Positions 7,093 through 39,577 of a stretch of 64,000 nucleotides of DNA are shown one piece after another. The stretch comes from Halomonas campaniensis (lineage in GTDB: Bacteria; Pseudomonadota; Gammaproteobacteria; Pseudomonadales; Halomonadaceae): contig NZ_JACHZF010000007.1 in the NCBI RefSeq assembly GCF_014193375.1, positions 62,001 to 126,000 on the forward strand, read 5' to 3'. The first letter of the stretch is position 1. The number at the start of each line of letters is the position of its first letter. The notes beneath the pieces are model-generated. The model was given only the letters and a program-made list of their open reading frames with translations. It made no database searches and was not told the DNA's origin. The position numbers and the translations under genes were made by a program.

Positions 7093-7983
7093 TCACGCCT
7101 TGCCGAAGGCGCGCAGGCGGCGCAGCAGCGAGGAGGTGTCCCAGCGGCTGCCACCCATCACCTGGACGTCGGCATAGAACTGGTCGACCAGCGCGGTGAC
7201 CGGCAGGCGAGCCTGGAGGCGACGGGCCTGCTCCAGGCAGATCCCCAGGTCCTTGCGCATCCAGTCCACCGCGAAGCCATGCTCGTACTCGTCGCGGATC
7301 ATGGTCTGGTGGCGGTTCTCCATCTGCCAGGAGCCGGCGGCCCCCTGGGAGATCACCTCGACCACGCGCTGCTGGTCGAGGCCCGCCTGCTCGGCGAAGT
7401 GAAGCCCCTCGGCGAGCCCCTGGACCAGGCCGGCGATGCAGATCTGGTTGACCATCTTGGTCAGCTGGCCGCTGCCGGCGGGGCCCATCAGGGTCACCGC
7501 ACGGGAGTAGTGGGCAAGCACCGGCTCGGCGCGGGCGAAGTTGGCCTCGCTGCCGCCGCACATCACGGTCAGCGCGCCGTTCTCGGCCCCCTGCTGGCCG
7601 CCTGAAACGGGGGCGTCGACAAAGCCGATGCCGCGCTCGCGGCAGGCGGCGTCCAGCTCCTCGGCGAGGTCCGCCGACGCCGTGGTGTGATCCACCAGCA
7701 GGCTGCCCTCGGTCATGCCGGAGAGGGCGCCATCCTCGCCGGTGGTGACCTGCCGGACGTCGTCGTCATTGCCCACGCAGACCAGTACCAGGTCGGCGCC
7801 CTCGGCGGCCTCGCGGGGGGTGGGGTGGTGGCTGCCACCGTGCTCGGCGGCCCAGGCCTCGCCCTTGGCGGCGGTGCGGTTGTAGACGCGAACCGTGAGG
7901 CCGGCGCGGGCCAGGTGGCCGGCCATGGGGTAGCCCATCACGCCCAGGCCGATGAAGGCGACGGTGGAGATCGGTTGGCTCAT
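7093..7983 (-). CDS. NAD(P)-dependent beta-hydroxyacid dehydrogenase
   Basis: A 296-residue member of the 3-hydroxyisobutyrate / 2-hydroxy-3-oxopropionate (tartronate semialdehyde) reductase family. The N-terminal Rossmann motif is FIGLGVMGYPMAGHL (residues 10-24). The substrate-binding signature is DAPVSGG near 122. The catalytic Lys is in GSGQLTKMVNQ at about 170-180. Length and order are standard for the family. Members reduce or oxidise 3-carbon and 4-carbon beta-hydroxyacids in glyoxylate, valine or taurine breakdown; the exact substrate is not determinable. It is monocistronic with hairpins on both sides, and shares its upstream terminator region with gltA. Confidence 0.88.
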   Translation of the reverse strand: MSQPISTVAFIGLGVMGYPMAGHLARAGLTVRVYNRTAAKGEAWAAEHGGSHHPTPREAAEGADLVLVCVGNDDDVRQVTTGEDGALSGMTEGSLLVDHTTASADLAEELDAACRERGIGFVDAPVSGGQQGAENGALTVMCGGSEANFARAEPVLAHYSRAVTLMGPAGSGQLTKMVNQICIAGLVQGLAEGLHFAEQAGLDQQRVVEVISQGAAGSWQMENRHQTMIRDEYEHGFAVDWMRKDLGICLEQARRLQARLPVTALVDQFYADVQVMGGSRWDTSSLLRRLRAFGKA

Positions 7984-8017
7984 TGCTGATTCCTTGCTCT
8001 TCAGGGTGGGAGAACGC

Positions 8018-8043
8018 AGAAAGCCGCCCGAGGGCGGCTTTCT
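8018..8043 (-). terminator. Terminator after gltA
   Basis: A 12-bp inverted repeat, AGAAAGCCGCCC with GGGCGGCTTTCT, lies 35 bp beyond the gltA stop. The A and T ends make it work in either direction. Confidence 0.8.
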
Positions 8044-8077
8044 GGTGACGCTGGCGGCAGTGCCGCGACCTGCCGAC

Positions 8078-9361
<1,284 letters not shown>

Positions 9362-9450
9362 GGAGGCCTCCTCTCGAGTTCGTGATAAGGGCGATAAGTT
9401 GTTATTTCGCGGTGCGTGTTCACCTGGAACGCCGGCGAAAAGGTTCGCCT

Positions 9451-32740: not shown

Positions 32741-33685
32741 ATGACAACAACAACAAGACGGCTGCTTGGCCTGCTCTTCGGTACCCTGCTGTCAATGCAG
32801 GCCATGGCGGACCACTATGCGATCCTTACCGGCGGTACCTCCGGGGTCTACTATCCCGTCGGGTTGGCCCTCAAGAGCGTGCTCGACCGGGAATTGCCCG
32901 AGCACACCTTCAGCGTCGTCTCGACCCAGGCCTCGGTCGAGAACCTCAACCTGCTGCAGAAGGGCGAGGGCATCATCGCCCTGGCCCAGGGCGACATCCT
33001 CTCCGATGCCTGGGAGGGCAACCCCGAGGCCGGCTTTCCCAGTTCGCGAACCCGGATCCGCCTGATCGGGGCCGCCTACCCCAACTTCATCCACCTGCTG
33101 GCCAGGTCAGACGCCGGCATCACCTCCCTGGAGGACCTGGCGGGCAAGCGCGTCTCGGTGGGCGCCGCACGCAGCGGCAACGAGCTCAACGCTCGGGCAC
33201 TGCTCGGCGCCGCAGGCCTCAGCTACGCGGATCTGACCCTGGTCGAGTACCTGCACTACGGCGAGAGCGTCGAACTGCTGGTGAGAGGAGAGCTCGACGT
33301 GGTGATCGTCTCGGCCGGGCTCGGCGTGGCGGCCGTCACCGAGGCGAGTCGGCGGGCCCGGGTGGACCTGGTGCCCATCGCTCCCGAGTTCATCGAGCGC
33401 CGGGCGAGCATGTTCATGCCCGGCGTCATTCCGGCGGGGAGCTATCCCGGCCAGGCCGAGGCGGTGCCCACCGCGGCGCTCAACAACTTCCTGGTCACGA
33501 CGTCCGAGGCCCCCGACGCCCTGGTCTACCGGATCACCCGGGCAATCTTCGACAACCTGGAGTCGATCTACGCCGCTCATCCGGCGGCCGAGGTGATCTC
33601 CCGCGAGGGCGCCGTGGCAACGCTCCCGATCGACCTTCACCCGGGAGCCGCCCGCTACTTCCGACAGGCGGGGGTGATGCCATGA
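32741..33685 (+). CDS. TAXI-family periplasmic solute-binding protein (copy 1)
   Basis: A 314-residue secreted protein with a signal peptide cleaved near MQAMA-DHY. The mature part begins YAILTGGTSGVYYPVG, the TAXI hallmark, followed by VVSTQASVENLNLLQ and ALAQGDILSDAW. TAXI proteins usually capture a carboxylate or amino-acid-like ligand for a TRAP membrane permease. No permease gene lies in this operon. The start at 32741 has GAGGTGG 4-5 nt upstream. Its last codons overlap the next gene by 4 bp. First of six tightly packed genes that go on to a histidine kinase; a sensing role is inferred. Confidence 0.88.
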   Translation: MTTTTRRLLGLLFGTLLSMQAMADHYAILTGGTSGVYYPVGLALKSVLDRELPEHTFSVVSTQASVENLNLLQKGEGIIALAQGDILSDAWEGNPEAGFPSSRTRIRLIGAAYPNFIHLLARSDAGITSLEDLAGKRVSVGAARSGNELNARALLGAAGLSYADLTLVEYLHYGESVELLVRGELDVVIVSAGLGVAAVTEASRRARVDLVPIAPEFIERRASMFMPGVIPAGSYPGQAEAVPTAALNNFLVTTSEAPDALVYRITRAIFDNLESIYAAHPAAEVISREGAVATLPIDLHPGAARYFRQAGVMP

Positions 33686-34641
33686 GAGGGGGAGCGCTAC
33701 GCCGCCGCGCCAGGGCCCTGCTGGCGGGCGTGATGCTGTGCCTGGCGCCCGTCGCCGTGGCGAGTGAGCTGGCGATCCTCACCGGCGGTACCTCGGGTGT
33801 CTACTACCCGGTCGGCCAGGCGCTGAAGGTGCTGCTCGAGGAGTCCATTCCCGAGCATCGTTTCCGCGTGATCTCCACCCAGGCCAGCGTGGAGAACCTC
33901 AACCTGCTGCAGCGCGGGGCCGGCGTGCTGGCCCTGGCCCAGGGCGATATCCTGGCGGACGCCTGGGCAGGCCGGCCCGAGGCGGGCTTCGCGGCCGCGC
34001 GGGACAAGATCCGGCTGCTGGGGGCGGCCTACCCGGACTTCATCCACCTGCTGGCAAGGACGGATGCGGGGGTCGTGGTGCTGGAGGACCTGGCGGGCAA
34101 GCGCGTCTCGGTCGGCGCCGCGCGCAGCGGCACCGAGATATCGGCCCGTGCCCTGCTGGGTGCCGCCGGCCTGAGCTATGCGGACCTGCTGCAGGTCGAG
34201 TACCTGCACTACGGTGAGGGCGTCGAGCGGCTGGTGAGCGGGGACCTCGATGCGGTGATCATCTCGGCGGGTCTCGGCGTGGCCGCCGTCGGCGAGGCGG
34301 CAAGGCGCACCGCGGTAAGCTTCGTGCCCATCGCTCCGCACCTCATGACGGCAAGTTCACGGTTCCAGCCCATTGCCATCCCGCCGGACAGCTATCCCGG
34401 CCAGGCGGAACCGGTGCCCACCGCGGCGCTCAGCAATTTCTTCGTCACCAGTGCCGACGTGCCCGAGGCGCTGGTCTATCGCATCACCCGGGCGATCTAC
34501 GACAACCTGGACAGGATCCATGCCGCCCATCCGGCGGCCCGTGCGATCCGCCTGGAGCATGCCCTGGCCACTCGCCCCGTCGCGGCCCACCCTGGCGCCC
34601 TGCGCTACTTCCGCGAGCTTGGCCTTGCGGAGTCACCCTGA
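33682..34641 (+). CDS. TAXI-family periplasmic solute-binding protein (copy 2)
   Basis: A 319-residue tandem paralogue of the preceding gene. The two share LTGGTSGVYYPVG, STQASVENLNLLQ, ALAQGDIL, LAGKRVSVGAARSG, RALLGAAGLSYADL and VEYLHYG. It has its own signal peptide (hydrophobic core LLAGVMLCLAPVAVA). Divergence is greatest in FVPIAPHLMTASSRFQPIA, a region that in other binding proteins lines the ligand cleft, so ligand choice may differ. It overlaps the previous gene (ATGA) and its stop overlaps the next start (TGATG). No TRAP permease is present. Confidence 0.88.
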   Translation: MRGGALRRRARALLAGVMLCLAPVAVASELAILTGGTSGVYYPVGQALKVLLEESIPEHRFRVISTQASVENLNLLQRGAGVLALAQGDILADAWAGRPEAGFAAARDKIRLLGAAYPDFIHLLARTDAGVVVLEDLAGKRVSVGAARSGTEISARALLGAAGLSYADLLQVEYLHYGEGVERLVSGDLDAVIISAGLGVAAVGEAARRTAVSFVPIAPHLMTASSRFQPIAIPPDSYPGQAEPVPTAALSNFFVTSADVPEALVYRITRAIYDNLDRIHAAHPAARAIRLEHALATRPVAAHPGALRYFRELGLAESP

Positions 34642-35042
34642 TGGAGGCTCACATGGCGCCGTTCTGCCTGGGGCTCGTCACCGCTGCCGCGGCCGTGGTG
34701 CTGCCGACGGCCACCCTGACCCTGGGCTGGCGCCACAGCGTCGAGGGGAGTCGCTGGGAGGAGGACTACCAGGCACTGGCCGGCGGGGTACTGATCACCG
34801 AAGCGAGGATCGAGGCGTTCGGTGCCGGCATGGAGCCGCCCGCCACGGCCGTTCGCCTTGGCCGCTGGTGGCACTACGTCCCCGCCCTGGGACCGCTTTC
34901 CGCCGTGCACCTGGCCAACTCCGACCGGGTGGGAGGCTACACCCTGTGCTGGGCGGAGGGCTGCCGTCCGCTGGACGGGATAGTGCCCAGAGGCCAGCCG
35001 GTCTCCCTGGTGTCGGCGAGCTGTGCGGCCGACGGTCAATGA
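34641..35042 (+). CDS. DUF1850 domain protein
   Basis: A 133-residue protein with a short hydrophobic N-terminus (about residues 6-25), suggesting export or a membrane anchor. The DUF1850 pattern is clear: LGWRHSVEGSRWEEDY near 28, FGAGMEPP near 60, and LCWAEGCRPLDG near 102 with two Cys. DUF1850 genes typically sit beside TAXI binding proteins and TRAP permeases. Here the gene keeps the TAXI neighbours but the permease is replaced by a histidine kinase. A second ATG four codons later is possible. It is coupled to both neighbours by overlapping codons. Confidence 0.8.
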   Translation: MEAHMAPFCLGLVTAAAAVVLPTATLTLGWRHSVEGSRWEEDYQALAGGVLITEARIEAFGAGMEPPATAVRLGRWWHYVPALGPLSAVHLANSDRVGGYTLCWAEGCRPLDGIVPRGQPVSLVSASCAADGQ

Positions 35043-35065
35043 GCGCGAACCGGGAGGCGCCTGCC

Positions 35066-36673
35066 ATGACGCTATCGGGAAACTGGTCGATCAAGGCCCA
35101 GGTCTTCGTCGCTCCCGGCATCATCATCCTGCTGATGCTGACGACCATCCTGATATTCGACCAGGTGCTTCGCCGCCAGCAGGCCACCTTCCTCGAGGTG
35201 GTGCATGGCCCCCTGGCCCGGGCGACCAATTCCGCCACCCAGCTGTTGCTCGGTGTCTCCGAGGTGCAGGCCGACGTGCTGCGCTATGCCCAGCGTCGCG
35301 AGCGCCTCCCGGAGGATGACCTGGTGCTGGTCGAACTCCGGCGCTCGATCCTGCATCGCTACGCGCGTATCGAGGCGACCTTCGAGGCGCTCCGGCAAGA
35401 TGCCGAGGGGACCGGCGAGACGGATGTGATCGCCAACATCCAGGATTTCCTGACCATTCACCGCGCGGTCTCGGAGCGGCTGATAGGCGGGCCGTCGATC
35501 GACAGCGTGGCCATGAGCAGCCTCATGGCCCACTACCAGCAGCTGCAGAGCTACATCACCGAACTGACCGAGCGGTCGCTGGCGTCCGCACAGCACACCG
35601 TCGACCAGGCCGAACGGCATGTCGGACGACTGGCCGCCATGCTGATGGCCGGGTCGGCGATCATCATCCTCTTCTCGGTGCTGATCACCCTCTACATCGG
35701 GCGTGCCATCTCGCTGCCGATCGCCCGGCTGATCGGCATCATGACCTCGGTGGCCGAGGGCAGGCCGGTGGTCGAGGTGCCCGGCCAGTGGCGTCGCGAC
35801 GAGATCGGCGAGATGGCGCGTGCCGTCGGCGTGTTCGACCGGGTCACCCGGGAGCTGCGTCGACGCGAGGTGCTGCTCGAGGAGGCGCGCCACACGGCCG
35901 AGCAGGCCAACGTGGCCAAGTCGGTGTTCCTGGCCAACGTCAGCCACGAGCTGCGTACGCCTCTGACCTCGATCCTCGGGTTCACGCGCATCATCCAGCG
36001 CCGCCTGGAGCGCTACGTGTGGCCGCGGGTCGACACCCGAGCGCCGCGGGTGGGGGAGGCCATGGCCCAGGTGTGTGACAACATCGAGATCATCCTCACC
36101 GAGGGCGTGCGGCTCACCACCTTGATCAACAACCTGCTCGACCTGGAGAAGATCGAGGCGGGCAAGATGTGCTGGCGCCTCGAGGCGGTCGAGCCCCGCA
36201 CGCTGATGGCGCTGGCCGCCGATGCCACCGCCGCCCTGCATGCCCGGGAGGGGCTGCATTTCGAGATGGCGCTGCCGGAGACCCTGCCCCGGGTCCGCGC
36301 CGACCGCGATCGGGTGGTTCAGGTGCTGATCAACCTGATCTCGAACGCGGTCAAGTTCACGCCGCACGGGCGGATCCGCTGCAGTGCCGCCGACCTCGGT
36401 GATGGTCGCGTCGAGCTTGCCGTCAGCGACACGGGGCGAGGAATCGCGCCCGAGGACCTGCAGCGGATCTTCGACAAGTTCCAGCAGGTGGGCGACACCC
36501 TGACGGAGAAGCCGACCGGCACCGGCCTGGGGCTGGCGATCTGCCGCGAGATCGTCACGCACCTGGGCGGCGAAATGCGCGTTCAGAGCGAGCCGGGGAA
36601 GGGCAGCCGCTTCGCCTTCACCCTGCCGGTCGCCGAGTCGGGCGCGATCCCCGAGATGAAGGAGAGTCCATGA
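35066..36673 (+). CDS. Membrane histidine kinase with helical periplasmic sensor
   Basis: A 535-residue sensor kinase. TM1 is at about residues 13-31, an all-helical periplasmic domain at about 33-188, TM2 at about 190-212, HAMP at about 212-265, then HisKA with the phospho-accepting His in SHELRTPL (about residue 294), and a HATPase domain with NLISNAVKF, DTGRGI and GTGLGLAI. An extra segment (RYVWPRVDTRAPR) lengthens the dimerisation helices. GGGAGG upstream favours 35066; an ATG at 35039 that overlaps the previous stop is an alternative. A helical sensor beside periplasmic binding proteins recalls TorS with TorT. The ligand is unknown. Confidence 0.9.
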   Translation: MTLSGNWSIKAQVFVAPGIIILLMLTTILIFDQVLRRQQATFLEVVHGPLARATNSATQLLLGVSEVQADVLRYAQRRERLPEDDLVLVELRRSILHRYARIEATFEALRQDAEGTGETDVIANIQDFLTIHRAVSERLIGGPSIDSVAMSSLMAHYQQLQSYITELTERSLASAQHTVDQAERHVGRLAAMLMAGSAIIILFSVLITLYIGRAISLPIARLIGIMTSVAEGRPVVEVPGQWRRDEIGEMARAVGVFDRVTRELRRREVLLEEARHTAEQANVAKSVFLANVSHELRTPLTSILGFTRIIQRRLERYVWPRVDTRAPRVGEAMAQVCDNIEIILTEGVRLTTLINNLLDLEKIEAGKMCWRLEAVEPRTLMALAADATAALHAREGLHFEMALPETLPRVRADRDRVVQVLINLISNAVKFTPHGRIRCSAADLGDGRVELAVSDTGRGIAPEDLQRIFDKFQQVGDTLTEKPTGTGLGLAICREIVTHLGGEMRVQSEPGKGSRFAFTLPVAESGAIPEMKESP

Positions 36674-37056
36674 CCGCGAAGATCCTGATCTGCGACGATG
36701 AGCCCCATATTCGCCGCCTCATCCAGCAGAGCCTGGAGGAACTCGAGGAGGAGGGGGTGACGCTCTTCCCCGTCGGTGACGGCGAGGAGGCCCTGGCCGT
36801 GATCCGCGACCAGCGCCCGGACATGATCATCCTGGATATCATGATGCCGGGTCGTGACGGCTTCGACGTCTGTGCCGAGGTCAAGGCCGATGCGATGCTT
36901 CGCTCGGCCTACGTCATGCTGCTGACCGCCAAGGGCCAGGAGTACGACCGACAGCAGGGTGACCGGGTGGGGGCCGACTGCTACATGACCAAGCCCTTCG
37001 ATCCCGACGAGCTCCTGGCCGTGTCGCGCCGGGTCATCGAGGCGCGGGGGGCATGA
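36670..37056 (+). CDS. Single-domain response regulator receiver
   Basis: A 128-residue CheY-like receiver with no output domain. The acidic pair is Asp9-Asp10 (ICDDE), the phospho-accepting Asp is at about 56 (IILDIMMPG), Thr is at 86 and Lys at 108 (TKPF). It overlaps the kinase gene (ATGA) and the next gene (ATGA), so it is the likely partner of that kinase. With no DNA-binding or enzyme domain, its output must be through protein contact, most simply with the GAF-permease encoded next. Confidence 0.92.
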   Translation: MTAKILICDDEPHIRRLIQQSLEELEEEGVTLFPVGDGEEALAVIRDQRPDMIILDIMMPGRDGFDVCAEVKADAMLRSAYVMLLTAKGQEYDRQQGDRVGADCYMTKPFDPDELLAVSRRVIEARGA

Positions 37057-39524
37057 GGTCGAGGGGGCCGGCCGAGTCGTCGCCGGAGGATGAGCCGTGC
37101 GACGACGGCGGCATCCTGCGCCGCCTGCTGGGCCAGCCCGCGCTGCGTGAACTGACCCAGCGGCCACCCTTCGCTGCGGCGGTGATCAGCGACCCCTTCG
37201 GCCACGCCCTGCTGGGCGACCCTCGCCAGCGCACCGGCTGGCCCGAGCCGGTGCGGGTCGGGGGCACCCGGATCGGTTACGTCGAGGGGAAGCGGGCCGC
37301 CGAGCTGGCCGACTTCCTGTCCGCCTGTGCCGAGCTCAACGAGGAGAACCGCGCCCTGGCCGCGGAGTCGCTGGCCAAGTACCGCGAGCTGTCGATGCTC
37401 TATCAGGTCACCGATCGGCTGCTGGGAGCGCCCGATGACGGCGAGGTGATGGCGCTGGTGGTCGAGGAGGCGAAGCGCTTCCTGCGGTGCGACAGCGCCT
37501 GCGTGCTGCTGCTCAACGAGGAGACGGGCAGCCTGGAGCGATTCCGGTGCTGCGGCATGCCCTTCCACTCGCGCGCGACCCTGGAGGTCGGCAACGATCC
37601 CCTGGGGACGGTGCTGCAAAGCGGCGTCGGCGAGATCGTCAACGATGTGCAGGCCGACCCGCGCCCGGTGCTGGCCGACGGCGGCCTGTGCTCGATCATC
37701 TGTAGCCCCATCAAGTCGCGCAACCGGTTGATCGGGGTGGTGGTGGTCGGCAGCGAGTCACCGCGCCACTTCAATGCCGCCGACCTTCAGCTGCTGAACA
37801 ACCTGGCCGCCCAGGGCGGCATCGCCATCGAGGTGGCACGCCTGTACGTGGCCCTCAGGCGCGACTCGGCCACCCCCGCGGATCTCATCTACGGCCTGGA
37901 GGACCGCCCCCCGGCCGTCACCATGCTGGTGCTGGGGGCCCAGCACGTGTTCATTGCCTTCATGTACCTGGCCGTGCCCGTGCTGATCGGCCTGGAAGGG
38001 GGGCTGGCGCCCCGTGAGATCGCCTCTCTGGTGAGCATGTCGCTGATCGCCATGGGGTTGACTACCCTGCTGCAGTTCCGTCGCCTGGGCCCGGTCGGCT
38101 GCGGCTACCTGGCGCCGGCGATCACCTCGGTGATCTACCTGCCGCCGCTGCTGCTGGCGGTGAATCTCGGCGGCATTTCCCTGGTCTTCGGCATGACCCT
38201 GATGATCGGCCTGTTCGGGCTGGTCTTCTCCCAGGTGCTGGGGCGGCTGCGGCGGCTCTTCCCGCCGGAAGTCTGCGGCGTGGTGGTGCTGATGACCGGC
38301 CTGTCGATCATCGGGGTGGCGCTGCCGCTGTTGCTGGGGCTCGGCGAGACGGGGACGGTCGACCCCGATGCCCTGACGGTGGGGCTCGTCACCCTGGCCG
38401 CCATGGTGGTCTGCACCATCTCGCGAGTCGGCCGGGTTCGCCTCTATGCGACGCTGCTGGGGCTGCTTGCCGGCTACGTCCTGAGCCTGTGGCTGGGCGT
38501 GGTCGATCGTTCGCTGCTCGACCAGCTGGTGGCCCAGCCCTGGGTCGGCCTGCCTGCGGCGCCCGCCCTGGAGCTGTCGTTCAGTCCACTGCTCGTCGTG
38601 CCCTTCGTGATCGCCAGCCTGGCGGCCAACATCAAGGTGCTGGGGCTCATCACCAGTGCCCAGATGACCAACGACGTCCACTGGAAACGGCCCGACATGC
38701 GCTCGATCCGTGGCGGGATCGTTGCCGATTCGGTCGGCAACCTGGCCTCCGGCGTGCTGGGAGGTGTCGGCACCTCCATGAGCGCCGGCAACATCGGACT
38801 CACCGCCGCCACCGGCGCGACCTCCCGCCACATCGGCATCGTCGTCGGTGGCATGTTCATCGCCCTGGCCTTCGTACCCAAGCTGACGGCGGCGATCACC
38901 CTGATGCCGGCCCCGGTGATGGGCGCAGGGCTGCTCTACACGGCCTGCTTCCTGGTCATCTCGGGGTTGGAGATGATCGTCTCGCGGCTGCTCGACTCGC
39001 GGCGCACCTTCGTGGTGGGGCTCGCCGTGCTCGCCGGGCTGGGACTGGAGCTGGTGCCCGGGGCCGCCGCCCAGGCGCCGCCCTGGGCGGCGGCCTTCCT
39101 GGCCAGCCCGCTGGCCTTCTCCACGACCCTGGCCGTCTGCCTGCACCTGCTGATGGGGATCGGCGTGTCACGTCGTGCCGCAGCGTGCTGGAAGGGGCGG
39201 GTCCCCGGGGAGGAGATCTTTCGCTTCATGGAGCGACAGGGGGCGGCCTGGGGCGCGCGGCCGGACGTGGTCCGACGGGCCAGCCCGGCGCTGGTGGAGC
39301 TGTGCGAGGAGGTGTGGTCCCGGGGGGGCGAGACCGAACTGGGGGTGTCCCTCGTCTATGACGAGCTGCACCTGGCGATGGAGGTGCGCTGGCAGCCGGG
39401 GCCGCACGAGGAACCTGCCCGGCTGGAGCGCCTGATCGGCCACCTGCAGCGTCGCCATGACGGCCGGGCCAGGCTTCATGCGGGGAACGACGGCTGGCTG
39501 GTGCGCTTCGACTTCGAGAACTGA
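37053..39524 (+). CDS. GAF-NCS2 (uracil/xanthine permease-like) fusion protein
   Basis: An 823-residue multi-domain membrane protein. Residues 1-108 are cytoplasmic and charged. About 110-265 is a GAF domain (LYQVTDRLL, then IICSPIKSRNRLIGVVVVG). About 285-705 is a nucleobase-cation symporter-2 body with many helices, including the TM1 QH pair (GAQHVF) and the helix-10 core SAGNIGLTAATGATSR. About 715-823 is a soluble tail with SLVYDELHLAMEVRW, faintly like an anti-sigma ATPase fold. In UraA two Glu bind the base; the aligned positions here are Ala525 and Gly579. It may be a sensor rather than a normal uptake carrier. Last gene of the operon. Confidence 0.82.
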   Translation: MRSRGPAESSPEDEPCDDGGILRRLLGQPALRELTQRPPFAAAVISDPFGHALLGDPRQRTGWPEPVRVGGTRIGYVEGKRAAELADFLSACAELNEENRALAAESLAKYRELSMLYQVTDRLLGAPDDGEVMALVVEEAKRFLRCDSACVLLLNEETGSLERFRCCGMPFHSRATLEVGNDPLGTVLQSGVGEIVNDVQADPRPVLADGGLCSIICSPIKSRNRLIGVVVVGSESPRHFNAADLQLLNNLAAQGGIAIEVARLYVALRRDSATPADLIYGLEDRPPAVTMLVLGAQHVFIAFMYLAVPVLIGLEGGLAPREIASLVSMSLIAMGLTTLLQFRRLGPVGCGYLAPAITSVIYLPPLLLAVNLGGISLVFGMTLMIGLFGLVFSQVLGRLRRLFPPEVCGVVVLMTGLSIIGVALPLLLGLGETGTVDPDALTVGLVTLAAMVVCTISRVGRVRLYATLLGLLAGYVLSLWLGVVDRSLLDQLVAQPWVGLPAAPALELSFSPLLVVPFVIASLAANIKVLGLITSAQMTNDVHWKRPDMRSIRGGIVADSVGNLASGVLGGVGTSMSAGNIGLTAATGATSRHIGIVVGGMFIALAFVPKLTAAITLMPAPVMGAGLLYTACFLVISGLEMIVSRLLDSRRTFVVGLAVLAGLGLELVPGAAAQAPPWAAAFLASPLAFSTTLAVCLHLLMGIGVSRRAAACWKGRVPGEEIFRFMERQGAAWGARPDVVRRASPALVELCEEVWSRGGETELGVSLVYDELHLAMEVRWQPGPHEEPARLERLIGHLQRRHDGRARLHAGNDGWLVRFDFEN

Positions 39525-39525
39525 A

Positions 39526-39551
39526 ACGCCCGGCTGTCTCCAGCCGGGCGT
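39526..39551. terminator. Terminator between the TAXI-kinase operon and gabT
   Basis: ACGCCCGGCTG and CAGCCGGGCGT form an 11-bp stem with a TCTC loop. Read leftward it is followed by TTTCAGTT, so it suits gabT best; its position after the stop at 39524 suggests it also ends the rightward operon. Confidence 0.75.
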
Positions 39552-39577
39552 GGTCGCGAGCGAGTCGTGACGGTCGA

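Follow-up and report, generated by a model that had tools for sequence, protein, structure and literature searches.

A six-gene operon of Halomonas campaniensis links TAXI binding proteins, a histidine kinase and a lone receiver to a GAF-NCS2 permease that they may control

This study concerns a six-gene operon of Halomonas campaniensis that combines TAXI-type periplasmic binding proteins with a two-component system and a membrane permease of the NCS2 family. The operon lies in a stretch of 64,000 nucleotides (hereafter the window, to which all coordinates refer), corresponding to positions 62,001-126,000, forward strand, of contig NZ_JACHZF010000007.1 in assembly GCF_014193375.1 (3.93 Mb, 77 contigs, 99.98% complete). 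Its genes run rightward over 32741-39524 and encode two TAXI proteins (TAXI1 and TAXI2), a DUF1850 protein, a membrane histidine kinase, a lone CheY-like receiver and a GAF-NCS2 membrane protein (Table 1). ATGA overlaps join TAXI1 to TAXI2, the kinase to the receiver and the receiver to the permease gene, and also DUF1850 to the kinase if the latter starts at 35039; the TAXI2/DUF1850 junction is TGATG. A preliminary description, made from the sequence alone, had reported six rightward genes linked mostly by such overlaps. Its coordinates and junction bases agree with the present analysis, and its family assignments are borne out by Pfam and NCBIfam.

Table 1. Genes and other features of the operon region, in window coordinates.
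Feature	Coordinates	Strand	Length	Family matches and remarks
TAXI-type periplasmic binding protein 1 (TAXI1)	32741..33685	+	314 aa	NMT1_3 5.3e-81; TRAP_TAXI
TAXI-type periplasmic binding protein 2 (TAXI2)	33682..34641	+	319 aa	NMT1_3 1e-73; TRAP_TAXI
DUF1850 protein	34641..35042	+	133 aa	Pfam DUF1850 1.5e-17
Membrane histidine kinase	35039 (alternative start 35066)..36673	+		HisKA 1.8e-17, HATPase_c 1.1e-31
Lone CheY-like receiver	36670..37056	+	128 aa	Response_reg 2.4e-26
GAF-NCS2 membrane protein	37053..39524	+	823 aa	GAF_2 1.8e-18, Xan_ur_permease 7.7e-48
C-terminal domain coding stretch, as used in the analysis	39156..39521	+		b-a-a-b-b-a-b-b in model
Hairpin	39526..39551	no strand		between operon end and convergent downstream gene

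The conservation of the operon was followed through its GAF-NCS2 protein. A broad scan of one genome per species (84,980 species), based on short exact peptide patterns that detect close relatives only, returned 14 loci, three of which carry the GAF domain, all three with the operon. The closest named relative is Halomonas daqiaonensis, which has both TAXIs, DUF1850, the kinase, the receiver and a GAF-NCS2 permease 87% identical to that of the window (the genus match G018 is a contig of this species, and the two were counted once). An Azoarcus metagenome-assembled genome (MAG) carries one TAXI, DUF1850, kinase, receiver and GAF-NCS2, and Zeimonas arvi the same set without DUF1850. The fifth operon, G766, comes from a sample of 74 genomes of the Zeimonas family, which gave two full-length matches; five further genomes of that sample match the protein only from about residue 235. 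In all, five genomes of the Halomonadaceae, Zoogloeaceae and Burkholderiaceae share the order TAXI, kinase, receiver, GAF-NCS2, and every full-length GAF-NCS2 protein found lies inside the operon. A co-occurrence search across genomes, which the preliminary description had proposed, thus recovers the core order in four other genomes, with DUF1850 in three of the five overall.

The remaining 11 of the 14 loci align only from about residue 233-276 on and show no TAXI match in their fetched flanks. Weak receiver matches occur at two of these non-operon loci, L023 and L032, and a weak kinase-core match at L023. The latter encodes a PAS/HisKA_3 kinase, with a receiver-like stretch next to it, on the opposite strand at 7745-9420, just upstream of a related GAF-less NCS2 permease. 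That kinase differs in class from the operon kinase, and this two-component neighbour of the permease branch is unrelated.

Within the genus sample, the operon occurs in 2 of 90 genomes. The class sample holds a full-length GAF-NCS2 protein in one of 370 genomes, the window's own, and in seven others the match is confined to residues 268-792 (for most genomes, scoring covered the best two candidates only). The kinase, used as a query at E 1e-80, retrieved one of 249 genomes of the Azoarcus family, the Azoarcus MAG itself, while a profile of the kinase sensor (E <= 1e-12, at most seven candidates scored per genome) matched the window's genome only, among overlapping samples of 369 class and 398 phylum genomes. 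Such a patchy distribution, with 2 of 90 genus genomes, would suit a chance neighbourhood of unrelated genes, but this explanation is contradicted by the gene order shared among five genomes from three families and by the overlapping reading frames, and it is extremely unlikely. The kept gene order and the overlapping genes mark the six genes as one functional unit.

The identities to the window's TAXI1, kinase, receiver and permease are 68/61/60/57% for the Azoarcus MAG, 67/59/53/49% for Zeimonas and 65/59/52/49% for G766. The rank is the same for all four proteins, as expected if the genes travel together, and this equal order, with identities of 49-68%, suggests the transfer of the whole unit between families. 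The operon is flanked by the same neighbours, as judged by eye, in both Halomonas genomes, so it was inherited in that small lineage. Mobile spread was considered and rejected: no permease match at E 1e-60 was found by tblastn in 72,556 plasmid records, and a scan of viral contigs confirmed no relative.

Both binding proteins are clear members of the TRAP_TAXI family (TIGR02122 of NCBIfam), scoring 306.0 (TAXI1) and 301.9 bits (TAXI2) against a curated cut-off of 84.35, and they are 69-70% identical to each other. TAXI proteins are normally paired with TRAP permeases, and orphan TRAP binding-protein genes exist according to the accessible text of PMC12344293. The operon TAXIs might then serve a distant TRAP permease, with the remaining operon genes forming a separate signalling-transport set. 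No DctM permease lies beside the operon, and none of the 32 DctM matches of the window genome falls on contig C7. Nine of the 12 TAXI genes of this genome have a TRAP permease no more than about 2 kb away; the other three are the operon's own pair and a gene on contig C19. This third gene (L054, G000:C19:16000-27000), likewise with no DctM match on its contig, is about 43-44% identical to a TAXI of contig C2. A search with the L064 permease at E <= 1e-10 gave 15 matches, some of them split, which represent eight permeases of the genome, and each of the eight adjoins its own TAXI gene. The one most like the expected type of partner shares 37% identity with it. The search for a TRAP permease elsewhere, also proposed in the preliminary description, therefore came back empty, as every TAXI-type permease found in the window's genome at this threshold has a TAXI partner. 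Since the kinase-receiver-NCS2 set is, moreover, always accompanied by a TAXI in the genomes found, service to a distant TRAP permease is very unlikely.

A TRAP-linked ancestry of the operon TAXIs is nevertheless indicated by their closest relatives. A profile of six operon TAXIs, searched in 369 class genomes at E 1e-60, detected, besides the window's two proteins, G356, G358 and G234 at 312-344 bits and G406 at 210 bits. All four of these non-operon matches (loci L063, L064, L065 and L066) adjoin a DctM permease. In L064 and L065 the DUF1850 gene comes after that of the permease, and in L066 it stands between the TAXI and permease genes; in L063 it seems, by eye, to start at the contig end. 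The window's DUF1850 is 35% identical to that of L064 and 42% to that of L065. L066, from a genome of the same family, has its TAXI-DUF1850-TRAP locus about 6 kb from an aminotransferase gene that by eye resembles a neighbour of the operon, which may be coincidence. In a 17-row tree (midpoint root, some long branches; rows for 8 of the 12 TAXIs of the window's genome, among them the operon pair), the seven operon TAXIs form one clade (100/100), nested in a ten-row clade (100/100) with the TRAP-linked proteins of L063-L065, without a resolved branching among these and the operon clade. This clustering points to the probable loss of a TRAP permease. The simplest and probable origin of the unit is a TAXI-TRAP-DUF1850 operon that lost its permease and was joined to the kinase, receiver and GAF-NCS2 genes, although the direction of change is one that we infer. 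The preliminary description would have regarded the operon as a chance fusion of two units if most homologous TAXIs stood beside TRAP permeases and the kinase, receiver and NCS2 genes occurred independently. The nearest TAXIs do stand beside such a permease, but in no collection searched were kinase, receiver and GAF-NCS2 found away from a TAXI. The operon is derived, not accidental.

The ligand site was compared by aligning six operon TAXIs (that of G766 left out) with VcGluP (8s4j). In VcGluP, according to the accessible text of PMC11574862, the loss of Y45 and Q93 costs 213- and 990-fold and that of S75 14-fold, while E125, Y200 and M201 have 1.3-, 3.5- and 2.1-fold effects. The two main glutamate-binding residues, Y45 and Q93, are kept as Y37 and Q83 in all six aligned proteins. 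S75 aligns to position 65, which is S in the four Halomonas copies and T in Azoarcus and Zeimonas. A fair guess at the ligand, and no more, is a small carboxylate, possibly glutamate or a compound close to it.

The kinase retains its phospho-acceptor H305 and its ATP-binding motifs in four homologues, and its HAMP match is just below the Pfam cut-off (22.2 of 25 bits). Between two hydrophobic segments lies a helical stretch, the predicted periplasmic part, and the structural model shows four long helices ahead of the HAMP region, which may, with low confidence, form a bundle. No Pfam family exceeds the threshold in this sensor: HBM reaches E 0.0036-0.078 in all four homologues scanned, and a sub-threshold TarH match occurs in one protein, where the unrelated E1-E2_ATPase scores equally. 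The fold-comparison list of the kinase was taken up by matches of the kinase core, not of the sensor. The receiver has no output domain found by Pfam and should therefore work by protein contact; the gene directly after it is the permease in all five operon genomes.

The last gene had been described as a GAF-NCS2 fusion. Both of these parts are confirmed, but that picture was incomplete, as it missed an N-terminal region, a C-terminal domain and an altered substrate site. The N-terminal region is followed by the GAF domain (residues ~131-260), the NCS2/SLC23 fold (~279-707) and the C-terminal domain (~707-823). The NCS2 domain has the UapA/UraA fold, as seen in the structure comparison of the model, and matches Pfam Xan_ur_permease. 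The N-terminal region (37053-37445) is predicted to form a small alpha/beta unit and then a long helix, with no Pfam match in any of three homologues.

The substrate site was read from an alignment of 16 permease rows (A3), from which the long N-terminal open reading frame ends of L028 and L030, with their doubtful start choices, were excluded. Residue E356 of UapA, described in the accessible text of PMC3405029 as irreplaceable, corresponds to lysine in all 16 rows, in a column that rests on profile alignment to UapA, the UraA alignment being gapped there. An aligned set of 23 distinct relatives has only basic residues here (K in 19, R in 3, H in 1). The equivalent of UapA Q85, Q297, is glutamine in 16 of 16 rows. 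The position of Q408 in transmembrane segment 10, which is Q or E in the nucleobase members of the nucleobase-ascorbate transporters (NATs), holds S (7), G (5) or A (4) and never Q or E, that of N409 in the same segment N (9, the window among them) or S (7), and that of D388 D (8, including D559 of the window), E (6), S (1) or N (1). The lysine makes a nucleobase substrate doubtful, and nucleobase uptake, taken as the default function of the permease, is weakened accordingly. The permease belongs to a branch that combines this altered substrate site with an additional C-terminal domain.

This altered site bears on another explanation, in which the NCS2-type elevator permease replaces the TRAP permease and receives the ligand straight from the TAXI, with the kinase and receiver only tuning the process. 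A basic residue at the E356 position would suit an anionic substrate, e.g., a carboxylate, and the UapA/UraA fold of the NCS2 domain fits such a role. A TAXI with a non-TRAP elevator partner has been proposed for TAXI-GltS (PMC12344293, in its accessible portions), and in the operon, where the TRAP permease is absent, TAXI and permease co-occur in five of five genomes. However, the two genes stand at opposite ends of the operon, unlike those of TAXI and GltS, which are neighbours or fused, and the kinase and receiver separate them in all five. The basic residue also occurs in relatives whose fetched flanks show no TAXI match (L022-L032), so the charge swap did not evolve for TAXI feeding, and its column depends on the profile alignment mentioned above. 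Direct feeding is judged unlikely, and its full form, with the phospho-relay switching the transporter protein, slightly less likely still. Because BctC works with its transporter and with the kinase BctE (accessible text of PMC5812351 and PMC9602780), sensing and feeding can both hold.

The C-terminal extra domain comprises about 105 residues after the permease fold. It occurs on NCS2 permeases of several phyla, with a W-G-A-R stretch conserved in all nine members aligned, and no Pfam family matches it above the cut-off. The order of strands and helices in the model (Table 1) fits GHKL. HATPase_c_2 matches one of the nine members weakly (E 0.012), hhalign gives E 0.29 against an RsbW-type protein vs 0.48 against an unrelated control, and the PDB yields one weak match, Mlh1, at E 1; the fold-comparison list of the permease was taken up by matches of the NCS2 domain, not of this one. 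The domain is possibly a degenerate GHKL/HATPase_c_2-like fold. SpoIIE phosphatase and STAS genes occur in the fetched flanks of NCS2 permeases with the same domain at L022, L023, L025 and L032 (genome titles Bacteroidales, Tepidiphilus, Euryarchaeota and Bacillota), together with an RsbW-type ATPase gene at L023, L025 and L032, and this permease branch looks tied to partner switching. The operon permease could be mainly a transceptor-like signalling protein, acting through its GAF and C-terminal domains, with TAXI, kinase and receiver as upstream input. The phosphatase and STAS genes in 4 of the 11 non-operon loci, with the ATPase in three, speak for this possibility, as does the GHKL-like order. 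On the other hand, the sequence matches to GHKL are weak, the operon has no STAS or phosphatase gene, and the ATPase gene of L032 is about 8 kb from the permease, which leaves the transceptor quite unlikely.

The explanation preferred here, tentatively, is that a TAXI-informed kinase and its receiver control the permease at the membrane. It draws on the gene order and on the receiver without an output domain, and in all five genomes the gene of a binding protein accompanies that of a membrane kinase with a periplasmic portion. The conserved kinase motifs, the shared rank of identities, the kept Y37 and Q83 and the lack of a TRAP permease at the locus also speak for it, and BctC, which serves its transporter as well as the kinase BctE, is a precedent. 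In this mechanism, the periplasmic TAXI would bind a small carboxylate, at best guess glutamate or a near relative, and the ligand-loaded protein would dock on the kinase at its helical periplasmic segment. The kinase would phosphorylate the lone receiver, which would act on the cytoplasmic domains of the GAF-NCS2 protein and set the permease activity, the GAF domain contributing an internal signal. Several points weigh against such control. Three of the six VcGluP ligand contacts are changed in all six aligned TAXIs (E125 to N/D, Y200 to V/I, M201 to S), and a ligand other than glutamate is therefore possible. The structural model of the kinase has low confidence (predicted local distance difference test 65, predicted template modelling score 0.38, four-sequence alignment), and the sensor could bind a ligand on its own, just as the receiver could have its target elsewhere. 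The genomes known to carry the operon are five only, and two of them, Zeimonas and G766, lack DUF1850.

At the end of the operon, the hairpin of 39526-39551, which has no T run, is a possible transcription-end structure. The folding energy is -34.2 kcal/mol (z = -3.84) for the whole stretch 39515-39575, which includes a second hairpin. A terminator scan did not pick up the hairpin, and its single terminator-like match lies inside the permease gene, shuffled sequences giving as many. A promoter scan found none.

The preliminary description had matched the combination to no named system, and literature searches (listings and abstract beginnings, with little subscription literature covered) likewise found no description of a TAXI-kinase-receiver-GAF-NCS2 combination and no mention of DUF1850. 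The two-component system of the operon is without a transcription factor and its sole linked target is the transporter, and phospho-relay control of uptake would become directly testable in it. If direct feeding were true, the SLC23 fold would join TRAP, the tripartite tricarboxylate transporters (TTT) and the proposed TAXI-GltS among the transporters that depend on a binding protein, and in its full form a phospho-relay would switch the transporter protein itself, not gene expression. Further classes of binding-protein-dependent secondary transporters would, according to the accessible text of PMC12344293, test whether the elevator mechanism permits the use of binding proteins. The operon is a natural candidate for this test, with a different elevator fold.

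The halves of the operon each have precedent. The TAXI-TRAP loci with DUF1850 (L064, L065) resemble it, their TAXIs being 47-48% identical to TAXI1. Unlike TAXI-TRAP systems, of which VcGluP-VcGluQM is a characterised example, the operon has a kinase, a receiver and GAF-NCS2 in place of DctM. TAXI-GltS of Bordetella pertussis (BP0403-BP0402) is similar in that a TAXI without a TRAP permease is linked to another secondary transporter, a pairing likewise based on gene linkage and fusions in the accessible text of PMC12344293. It differs in that the operon transporter is of the NCS2 type with added cytoplasmic domains, and a two-component system lies in between. In contrast to UraA, UapA and PbuX (NCS2/NAT, SLC23), the operon permease adds the GAF and C-terminal domains, and in contrast to UapA its branch has a lysine at E356 and no Q or E at Q408 (16 of 16 rows). 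In TorT-TorS, a periplasmic binding protein works with a membrane histidine kinase. The operon encodes the same kinds of components as TorT-TorS and, as far as the accessible descriptions go, as BctC-BctE/BctD, but has a TAXI instead of TctC or TorT, a receiver without output and a different transporter.

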